From positions 1-64,000 of the forward strand of contig JAUXTT010000042.1 of the NCBI GenBank assembly GCA_030684395.1: a stretch of DNA of 64,000 bases, read 5' to 3'. A program made the position numbers and the translations under genes. The notes beneath the pieces were generated by a model. It was not told the DNA's origin and made no database searches. It saw only the letters and a program-made list of their open reading frames with translations. This DNA comes from Bacteroidota bacterium. GTDB lineage: Bacteria > Bacteroidota > Bacteroidia > B-17B0 > Aurantibacillaceae. This document shows, piece by piece, positions 5,024-58,366 of the stretch. The first letter of the stretch is position 1. Each line of letters starts with the position of its first letter.

Positions 5024-5047
5024 GTAGTTGAGCGTAGCCGAAACTAC
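5024..5047. repeat. GTAGTT...AACTAC inverted repeat
   Basis: Six-base perfect arms (5024-5029, 5042-5047) flank GAGCGTAGCCGA. The right arm supplies the TAG stop of the minus-strand gene that ends at 5044. Confidence 0.5.
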
Positions 5048-56185: not shown

Positions 56186-57139
56186 ATGGAAAACGTAAAT
56201 TCAAATACAAATATGGAAGAATGGTTTGATGCCAAACTTCAAAAAAATGAGATGATTGAACCTAAGGACTGGATGCCGGAAAATTACCGCAAACACCTTA
56301 TTCGTCAGATCTCTCAGCATGCACATTCTGAAATTATAGGAATGTTGCCTGAAGGAAACTGGATCACCCGCGCCCCAAGCCTTAGAGCTAAAATCGTTTT
56401 AATGGCAAAGGTGCAAGATGAAGGCGGACACGGTTTGTATTTGTATACAGCAGCTGAAACACTCGGTTCTTCACGTGATGAATTATTGGACGCATTACAC
56501 ACTGGAAAGGCTAAATATTCTTCTATATTTAACTACCCTACCCTAACCTGGGCTGATATTGGAGCTGTGGGTTGGTTAGTGGACGGAGCTGCCATTATGA
56601 ATCAAGTAATGTTGCAACGTACTTCATATGGTCCATACGCGCGGGCAATGGTGAGAATTTGTAAGGAAGAAAGTTTCCACCAAAGACAAGGTTATGAAAG
56701 TATGTGTCACCTTGCATTTGGAACAACCGAGCAAAAACAAATGGCTCAGGATGCATTAAACAGATGGTGGTGGCCAACATTAATGATGTTCGGACCTACG
56801 GATGATAAATCTCCAAATACTGCAAACGCTATTAAATGGAAGATCAAACGTGAAAGTAACGATCAGTTACGTCAACGTTTTATCAATCAAACCATACCGC
56901 AGGTTGAATATCTTGGACTAACAGTTCCTGATCCGGATTTAAAATGGAATGAAGAGAAAAAAGGCTACGACTTTGGATCCCCAAACTGGGACGAATTTAT
57001 GTCTGTGATTGCCGGAAACGGGCCTTGTAACAGAGAGCGTTTAAAAGCACGTGTTGATGCTCATAAAAACGGAGAATGGGTTAGAGCTGCTGCAAAAGCA
57101 CATGCCGACAAAACAAAAGAAATGGAATTTGCTGCGTAA
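56186..57139 (+). CDS. paaA: 1,2-phenylacetyl-CoA epoxidase subunit PaaA
   Basis: Catalytic di-iron subunit of the ring-epoxidising complex of aerobic phenylacetate breakdown. 317 residues, ferritin-like: iron-site segments [19 protein letters not shown] and [14 protein letters not shown] each hold Glu and His ligands in an E-x2-H arrangement. [41 protein letters not shown] (in part) is the family N-terminal signature. Start at 56186 is set by the promoter and family length; a TTG start 13 codons earlier would overlap the promoter. First of paaABC. Confidence 0.97.
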
Positions 57140-57189: not shown

Positions 57190-57477
57190 ATGTCTGATTC
57201 ACAAGGACCAATTTGGGAAGTATTTATACAAAAAAAACCGGGACAACCATTCGTTCATTGCGGAAGTCTTCATGCATTTGATAAGGAAATGGCTTTACAA
57301 AACGCGAGAGATCTTTATACACGCAGAGGTGAAGGAACAGCTTTGTGGGTAGTGCCTTCCAGTGCAATAGTATCAAGTTCACCTGAAGACTTAGGCCCAT
57401 TCTTTGAACCTGCAAACGATAAGGTTTACAGACACCCTACCTTCTACCAAATTCCTGAAGGAGTTAAGCATATTTAG
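57190..57477 (+). CDS. paaB: 1,2-phenylacetyl-CoA epoxidase subunit PaaB
   Basis: A 95-residue small structural subunit that bridges PaaA-PaaC dimers in the epoxidase. The family wording is clear: GPIWEVFIQKKPGQPFVHCGSLHAFDKEMALQNARDLYTRR (in part) and LWVVPSSAIVSSSPED, ending YRHPTFYQIPEGVKHI. It starts 51 bases after paaA. A 23-bp inverted repeat follows at once, before paaC. Confidence 0.97.
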   Translation: MSDSQGPIWEVFIQKKPGQPFVHCGSLHAFDKEMALQNARDLYTRRGEGTALWVVPSSAIVSSSPEDLGPFFEPANDKVYRHPTFYQIPEGVKHI

Positions 57478-57497
57478 GAAAAATAAAACAACGAAAT

Positions 57498-57567
57498 GTC
57501 AGGTCGAGCGAAGTCGAGACCATTTCGGAGGAAAGTACAAGTCAGTCTCGACTTCGCTCGACCTGAC
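57498..57567. repeat. Perfect 23-bp inverted repeat within the paa operon
   Basis: Arms 57498-57520 and 57545-57567 are perfect complements (beginning GTCAGGTCGAGCGAAGTC) around a 24-base loop CATTTCGGAGGAAAGTACAA... There is no T-run, so it is not a simple terminator. It resembles the dispersed GTCGAGCGAAGTCGAGAC-type elements of Bacteroidota genomes. Confidence 0.92.
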
Positions 57568-57607
57568 AACAAAATACTCATTACCTCTGTGGTGAAATTT
57601 TAAAACA

Positions 57608-58366
57608 ATGAACAAACAAGAAGCTCTTTTTAAATACACACTGCGTTTAGCAGATAATAGTTTGATACTTTCTCAACGTCTTTCAGAATGGACCGGTCAC
57701 GGACCTTTTTTGGAAGAGGATTTGGCTCTTACCAATATTTCTTTAGACCTTTTAGGGCAATCCAGGTCCTTTTTGGAATATGCCGCAAAAGTTGAAGATA
57801 AAGGAAGAACAGAAGATGATCTTGCTTTTTTACGTGGCGAAAGAGAATTCTACAATACATTATTGGTTGAACAAACAAACGGCGATTATTCAAAAACAAT
57901 TGCACGTCAGTTTTTTATAGATGCTTTTGATTATTATTTCTACTCGGAACTTACAAAAAGTAAGGATGAAACATTAGCCGGTATTGCTGCTAAATCAGTA
58001 AAAGAAATCACTTACCATTTACGCCACACAGCAAGCTGGATGGTACGTTTTGGTGATGGCACGGAAGAAAGTCACGAACGCTTGCAAAATGCGATCAATG
58101 ATCTTTGGAGATTCACCGGAGAATTATTTGAAATGACTGCGGTTGACGAACTCTTAATTAAAGAGGGAATTGCTGTTGACCTGAACGCTGTTAAAAGCAA
58201 ATGGGAAAAACACGTTAGTGAAGTTCTTGCTACATCAAAAGTATCTGTACCGGAAAATGCATACATGCAACGTGGGAGCCGCGACGGTAAACACACCGAG
58301 AACTTAGGATATATTTTAGCAGAAATGCAATATCTTCCAAGAGCAATTCCGGGAGCTAAGTGGTAA
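57608..58366 (+). CDS. paaC: 1,2-phenylacetyl-CoA epoxidase subunit PaaC
   Basis: Structural ferritin-like subunit of the epoxidase, 252 residues. Family signatures: LSEWTGHGPFLEEDLALTNISLDLLGQSR (in part), ARQFFIDAFDYYFYSEL, KEITYHLRHTASWMVRFGDGTEESHERLQNA (in part) and a final RDGKHTENLGYILAEMQYLPRAIPGAKW (in part). It is separated from paaB by 130 bases filled by an inverted repeat, unlike compact paa operons. paaD and paaE do not follow: the next gene (pabB) runs the other way after 104 bases. Confidence 0.97.
   Translation: MNKQEALFKYTLRLADNSLILSQRLSEWTGHGPFLEEDLALTNISLDLLGQSRSFLEYAAKVEDKGRTEDDLAFLRGEREFYNTLLVEQTNGDYSKTIARQFFIDAFDYYFYSELTKSKDETLAGIAAKSVKEITYHLRHTASWMVRFGDGTEESHERLQNAINDLWRFTGELFEMTAVDELLIKEGIAVDLNAVKSKWEKHVSEVLATSKVSVPENAYMQRGSRDGKHTENLGYILAEMQYLPRAIPGAKW

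Follow-up and report, generated by a model that had tools for sequence, protein, structure and literature searches.

A 72-bp pair of TGTC-tagged palindromes between paaB and paaC: a probable mobile repeat associated with small GIY-YIG nuclease genes

The element between paaB and paaC

What is a perfect inverted repeat doing between two neighbouring genes of a catabolic operon? The question is raised by a 64,000-nucleotide stretch of Bacteroidota DNA (the window), in which paaA (56186..57139, + strand; NCBIfam TIGR02156), paaB (57190..57477, + strand; TIGR02157) and paaC (57608..58366, + strand; TIGR02158) follow one another, all three products matching their NCBIfam families above the cut-off. 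A repeat search places the inverted repeat at 57497-57520 and 57545-57568, with arms of 24 nt each that are 100% complementary and lie 24 nt apart. The whole element is 72 bp long; 19 bases separate it from the paaB stop and 39 from the paaC start. An earlier note on this DNA had described a perfect 23-bp inverted repeat at 57498-57567. The repeat is real, perfect and situated between paaB and paaC, but its arms are 24 bp long, extending one base further on each side.

The left arm (57497..57520, + strand) consists of a TGTC tag, an A and an imperfect palindrome with the core TCGAGCGnAGTCGAGA, and is defined by its perfect pairing with the right arm, by copies elsewhere and by covariation within the arm. 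The right arm (57545..57568, - strand), assigned from pairing and copies, is the same palindrome with its tag outward, the two forming a head-to-head pair. By eye, the 24-bp spacer between them (57521..57544) is similar to that of certain copies elsewhere in the genome, among them L046, L058 and L060. The 18-base arm core occurs with up to three mismatches at three places in the 64-kb window, namely the two arms and one degenerate copy, compared with a mean of 0 in 100 shuffles; the degenerate copy is a single core on the minus strand at 5027-5044 with three mismatches.

The predicted RNA fold of 57490-57580 has a free energy of -48.9 kcal/mol, compared with -18.9 +/- 3.1 kcal/mol in shuffles (n = 200; z -9.7), and no shuffle was as good. 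Within a transcript of the paa genes a strong hairpin would be expected here. So stable a structure could shield the paaAB portion of the message against 3' exonucleases or serve as a target of RNase III, and a putative stabilization of the paaAB mRNA or lowering of paaC expression is possible, as is a mild effect on the paaAB/paaC ratio. The predicted stability is one point in favour of reading the element as a conserved paa regulatory hairpin (an mRNA stabilizer, RNase site or attenuator) maintained by selection. An intrinsic terminator, for which a G+C-rich stem with a trailing T-run is the criterion, was rejected: the terminator scan gave no terminator-like site at the element, and no T-run follows the hairpin. 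A search of Rfam returned a single sub-threshold match over the element, to a microRNA family (20.3 bits; gathering score 200), which we take as chance.

The PaaC loci of 29 relatives were inspected, and both paaB and paaC were found in 28 of these (no paaB was found in L099). In none of the 28 relatives with both genes side by side does an arm (up to three mismatches) lie between paaB and paaC, where the gaps range from 0 to 474 bp. The nearest relative, G047, whose PaaB is 98% identical, has no strict arm (as defined below) in its entire genome. Since the gap is free of arms in all 28 relatives, the element is most likely, as judged from sequence comparison, a lineage-specific insertion between paaB and paaC, and the same result argues against a hairpin conserved for regulation of the operon. 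The relatives' gaps have, by eye, no clear sequence in common with this one that would fix the exact insertion boundaries. One arm does occur in a paa operon elsewhere: in G106, from another family of the class, a single strict arm lies between paaA and paaB (L108:1028-1050). We read it as an independent insertion in a similar operon. It is nevertheless a point in favour of a regulatory hairpin, and it indicates that paa operons may attract or tolerate the arm more than assumed.

Dispersed copies and the single arm as the unit

A BLAST search with the element gave 37 matches in its own genome, and the arm core with up to two mismatches gave 51 matches genome-wide compared with 0 for a reversed control. 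The core matches were grouped into 33 sites, including that in the window, at which 61 arms could be read (up to three mismatches). By reading, head-to-head pairs with the tags outward are present at 19 of the 33 sites and tail-to-tail pairs at three. A simple ORF finder places 16 of the sites between unidirectional genes, eight between convergent and none between divergent genes, with six inside ORFs and three at contig edges. A position just 3' of an upstream gene is common in the repeat family; the location of the element directly after paaB is consistent with a regulatory role in so far as REPs often sit after genes, but the occurrence of the same element beside many other genes argues against a function specific to paa. 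In the order, the strict arm TGTCANNTCGAGCGNAGTCGAGA is present in 49 of 87 genomes, all of one family, with 0-132 copies per genome and no match for the reversed control, and strict head-to-head places number 100 in 26 of the 87 genomes. G004 has 132 strict arms, G075 has 40 and G074 has 37. The earlier note had offered three readings of the repeat: stabilization of the paaAB message, reduced paaC expression and a recently inserted mobile palindrome. The last is the best of these, given the dispersed copies, the arm-free gaps of the 28 relatives and the lack of any strict arm in G047.

Several further features of the copies were noted. G004 contains tandem arrays of arms (L208-L212) with periods often of 21-27 bp and up to about 17 copies. 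Some arms lie within ORFs and are translated in frame (e.g. as VTSSEVEK), as at L055:1961-2043 in a linker-rich protein; in G019 (L215, L216, L207) in-frame arms occur in related proteins with differing arm numbers. Two copies of the pair (L048 and L068; C13:15113 and C37:107610) lie inside inverted ends of the type GAGGCTGTCTCAAAAGTC, which resemble insertion-sequence ends and which we take to be IS1182-like. Several copies (L043, L045, L052, L054, L059 and L074) adjoin a longer composite repeat that contains TTGGTGTTATCACCAAC palindromes in its interior and coincides with contig ends (the starts of C1, C22 and C24).

The arm has the layout TGTCA-N1-N2-TCGAGCGnAGTCGAGA-N2'-N1'. Its outer pairs vary (GT, CT, GG, CG, TG, TT, CA and TA), its inner stem contains mismatches and its base n varies freely. 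Covariation was examined in 69 strict pairs (138 arms) from the 100 head-to-head places of the order, with six left out and the remaining 25 held out. The N1-N1' bases are Watson-Crick pairs in 124 and the N2-N2' bases in 132 of the 138 arms, compared with means of 48 (maximum 66) and 61 (maximum 79), respectively, when the 3' letters are redealt. In the 25 held-out pairs the corresponding values are 46 and 49 of 50 arms. Every pair from outside the family of the window among the matches listed was also used (n = 27, other families of the class), and both positions are Watson-Crick paired in 54 of 54 arms. The conserved unit is the single arm, a TGTC-tagged imperfect palindrome, and not the long hairpin, because the outer pairs covary within the arm and not across the hairpin. 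The same observation counts against selection for a paa regulatory hairpin, which in our view is improbable. A GNA loop with tandem G-A mismatches could stabilize the arm as DNA. In a standard model single arms give only weak DNA folds (z 0.15, 0.01 and -1.13), so the symmetry could instead reflect a protein site.

The two arms of a pair are seldom alike in this order. Equal outer stems occur in four of the 69 pairs, compared with 14.3 expected (P 0.0005), and in one of the 25 held-out pairs, compared with 5.5 expected (P 0.02). In the other families of the class they occur in 17 of the 27 pairs among the matches listed, close to the 18.0 expected, with 15 of the 17 from one genus. A universal rule of arm difference was thus rejected, as avoidance is seen in this order and is absent from the listed pairs of other families. 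Perfectly matched arms were found in three of 94 pairs in the order (2/69 and 1/25), which makes the pair in the window exceptional there, while in other families of the class perfect pairs are common (17 of the 27 listed, 15 from one genus). The suggestion in the earlier note that perfect arms point to recent arrival is therefore weak: whether a pair is perfect depends on arm subtype as much as on age, and a perfect match alone does not date the insertion.

Small GIY-YIG nuclease genes beside the palindromes

The paired, head-to-head layout is that of a REPIN mobilized by a RAYT, and the genome contains four Y1_Tnp genes, two of which carry the motif YIHQNP or YIHNNP. In the available portion of the published account this motif is assigned to a subclass in Bacteroidetes that has atypical structures in its flanks, and a related subclass 1.2 is described as being without typical REPs (PMC6006769); subclass assignment was made here by motif alone, and for the genome of the window only. 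Y1_Tnp is present in 57 of the 87 genomes of the order. However, an arm flanks the gene at only one of the 73 Y1_Tnp loci examined, as a single arm about 370 bp away, no Y1_Tnp match was found in G004, G075 or G074 despite their 132, 40 and 37 strict arms, respectively, and the arms have no GTAG foot. The association with RAYTs was rejected on these grounds, and a RAYT-mobilized REPIN is a very improbable description of the element. Nine of 23 Y1_Tnp loci (L118, L122-L127, L131 and L134) share words of their own across both flanks, of which about six are palindromic by eye.

A different gene accompanies the arms. In three genomes arms were found about 390 bp apart; in two of these they frame a small GIY-YIG gene, and in the third they lie inside an ORF. 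The best-scoring 90 PF01541 loci of the order were collected, taken in order as the first 30 and the next 60 rather than as a random sample. With no motif named, words of at least 13 bases common to both flanks were found at 65 of 85 of these loci (five with too little flank were left out) compared with nine of 49 controls; in a slightly different run the controls with shared words were nine of 50, all of them Y1_Tnp loci and none a PaaC locus. Five palindrome types account for much of the sharing, and type A is that of the paa element. Any palindrome type lies within 450 bp at 56 of the best 90 loci compared with two of 84 controls, and the same type lies on both sides at 45 of the best 90 compared with none of the 84; the controls were scanned with 450 bp on each side, and for 34 weaker Y1_Tnp controls positions 1000-1500 of each locus were treated as the gene. 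The two-sided loci comprise 19 in the first 30 and 26 in the other 60, four of the latter being of type A. The four types besides A were recognized in the first 30 loci, but their patterns were set down only once the shared words and flanks of all 90 had been seen, so the later 60 loci do not form a clean hold-out.

A clean hold-out is provided by 80 nuclease relatives from a named genome collection, chosen after the patterns were fixed and taken with flanks of 330 and 400 bp. They are nearly all from Bacteroidota (Flavobacterium, Chryseobacterium, Pedobacter, Dyadobacter, Aquimarina and others), and at least three of them (L387, L395 and L405) come, judging by identical lengths, from contigs already present in the order set. 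The same type is found on both sides at 53 of the 80 loci and any of the five types in the flanks at 73, and a shared word of at least 13 bases at 64. A generic scan for tagged hairpins, although weaker, points in the same direction, with hairpins on both sides at 28 of the 80 named loci compared with one of 50 controls, and on either side at 61 of 80 compared with 14 of 50. Type A itself lies beside nine of the best 90 loci, on both sides in seven; these are nine sites with mutually unrelated outer flanks. Strict type-A arms number 34, some of them in arrays, in 77.5 kb of GIY-YIG flank compared with 867 in 311.7 Mb of the order, a density about 158-fold higher. By association, the small GIY-YIG gene is shown to be the gene that accompanies the palindrome family.

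The arms nearest to the nuclease gene tend to have their tags outward. At two-sided loci this holds for nine of 12 in type A, 28 of 38 in B1 and ten of 18 in B2, compared with 25% expected, B1 and B2 each including at least one locus counted twice. The gene-bearing layout is that of the bare pair with the nuclease gene replacing the spacer, and on the type-A figure (9/12) the bare pair has the same ends as the gene-bearing element, as is required of a MITE. In a tree of 90 nucleases, built from 108 columns and with many weak forks, the seven labels need 19 changes compared with a shuffled mean of 60, and none of 200 shuffles is as low. Types C and D each form one clade, and type A is placed next to D and requires three changes; the labels tRNA (eight changes in 18 rows), B1 (six in 14) and B2 (four in 12) are scattered. 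Palindrome type follows nuclease clade. The commonest loop base beside the nuclease is also the commonest among dispersed pairs in eight of the nine genomes with both, G074 being the exception, although the counts are small.

PF01541 was matched in five of five of the GIY-YIG proteins searched in Pfam, and four searched in NCBIfam matched no family there. In 22 aligned nucleases Tyr10, Tyr20, Gly22, Arg30, His34 and Glu68 (the tyrosine positions being Y10 and Y20) are invariant, and we take these to be residues of catalytic type. Searched against solved structures, the nuclease profile matches UPF0213 proteins (1zg2, E 2.3e-22; 1ywl, E 9.2e-19) and, more weakly, SLX1 (E 0.002).

Two further observations concern where these genes lie. 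Homologous places hold a GIY-YIG gene in some genomes (L276, L282 and L296, the last placed only through its likeness to the other two) and a Y1_Tnp gene in others (L122, L124 and L143), so that the two kinds of gene share a hot spot for insertion. Small GIY-YIG genes of a second group adjoin tRNA genes: ARAGORN found a tRNA in 18 of 26 loci scanned, which were chosen from the best 90, and the group includes L231, L245, L254, L281, L285, L292, L303, L307, L309 and L314. In several of these a tRNA-like 3' sequence is common to both sides of the gene, as if insertion took place at tRNA ends with a replacement end.

Origin of the element and comparison with known systems

The most likely description of the paa element is a non-autonomous relative of the GIY-YIG cassettes. 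The explanation that we prefer, with a probability of roughly 0.55, is that a mobile TGTC-tagged pair has inserted in the paa operon and has a GIY-YIG endonuclease as its cognate partner. The element would be a 72-bp non-autonomous mobile repeat of head-to-head TGTC palindromes that entered the paaB-paaC gap in this lineage. Its partner elsewhere would be the small GIY-YIG endonuclease encoded between two tag-outward arms, in the place of the spacer. The nuclease may recognize the palindromes and cut there, and repair of the break would then spread both the nuclease cassette and the spacer-only pairs, the latter being MITE-like derivatives of which this genome keeps copies. We infer a putative mobilization in trans by the nuclease from the association alone, which fits a mover and a homing nuclease equally and does not separate the two roles.

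It is possible, although in our judgement unlikely, that the palindromes are spread by some other enzyme and that the GIY-YIG genes are homing parasites which target them, in the manner of the REP-targeting insertion sequences documented in the accessible part of one report (PMC1525189). The genes beside tRNAs (18 of the 26 scanned loci), with tRNA-like 3' sequence on the far side, have the appearance of such target-directed insertion. Homing parasitism, however, leaves the spread of the palindromes without explanation. The only empty site compared across genera also contains no palindrome: the flanks of a type-A cassette in G020 match a locus on C1 of the present genome, where the stop and start of the neighbouring genes share a base, whereas in G020 about 0.9 kb, consisting of arms, a nuclease gene and further arms, separates the two genes. 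As G020 and this genome belong to different genera, the order of events at this junction is not proven, and the palindrome could have come first in the other lineage.

The nuclease genes of the genome itself also bear on its present state. There are six PF01541 matches, two of which are in long frames, while C31 and C35 are small and different-looking by eye and C6 contains stops. The gene on C2 encodes a small nuclease that groups with B2 loci and is flanked on one side by B2-like palindromes, and it was the only strong match in a search of the genome with the nuclease alignment. These matches, the alignment search and the tree revealed no type-A-clade nuclease in the genome, which is rated 98.9% complete. 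The best interpretation of the paa element is therefore a non-autonomous copy whose own nuclease has been lost from this genome or was never present in it, and present-day mobilization would need another or a lost enzyme.

More generally, we suggest tentatively, and at somewhat less than even odds, that small GIY-YIG endonucleases mobilize TGTC/CGTC-tagged REPs in Bacteroidota as a second, RAYT-independent REP system with clade-specific palindromes, in which the cassettes are autonomous and spacer-only pairs such as that in paa are not. If this is true, GIY-YIG nucleases would be agents of genome-wide repeat spread and not of site-specific homing alone. A bolder extension starts from two observations: a TCGA or TTCGA core is present in several palindrome types, and other GIY-YIG clades adjoin tRNA genes where tRNA-like 3' sequence is duplicated. 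On this view the palindromes may be free-standing imitations of a target in the T-arm of tRNA. The consequence for paa would be modest, a catabolic operon having received a mobile insertion.

A link between GIY-YIG proteins and REP-like palindromes was not reported in the titles and abstract starts of the papers listed in searches of open-access PubMed Central, and the available text of PMC12306157 makes no mention of GIY. No open-access paper containing the letters of the arm was found. The palindrome-associated nucleases are similar in profile to UPF0213-type small GIY-YIG proteins and to SLX1, which is titled a structure-specific endonuclease; in the open-access papers listed no role in repeat mobility was seen for either.

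REPINs, which are built from RAYT-associated GTAG REPs, are paired inverted palindromes that are dispersed and non-autonomous and have a gene-bearing counterpart. The element shares each of these features, but its foot is TGTC and not GTAG, and it is associated with a GIY-YIG nuclease instead of a Y1 transposase.

The closest comparison is with the CGTC-tagged REPs of five phyla, including Bacteroidetes, which according to the available part of the account are apparently without a dedicated transposase (Di Nocera, De Gregorio and Rocco 2013, PMC3733652). Judged against the same part, the two are alike in several respects. The published repeats have a CGTC tag, or TGTC in many, and the arms here begin TGTCA; head-to-head dimers with spacers predominate in both (19 of 33 sites in this genome); both are short palindromes that are mostly intergenic and near gene 3' ends, with some in ORFs; and homodimers and heterodimers are both known. 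They differ in that the published stems are of 8-9 bp with A-T first and second pairs and loops of 4-5, whereas here the outer pairs vary and the inner stem is mismatched, and in that a CCA-like tail is published whereas the bases after the stem vary here, by eye. No transposase association is described for the published repeats; here Y1_Tnp genes show none, but GIY-YIG genes are associated. The available part of that account names no partner gene, and a clade-matched nuclease between the same palindromes provides a named and testable candidate for REPs that apparently have no transposase.
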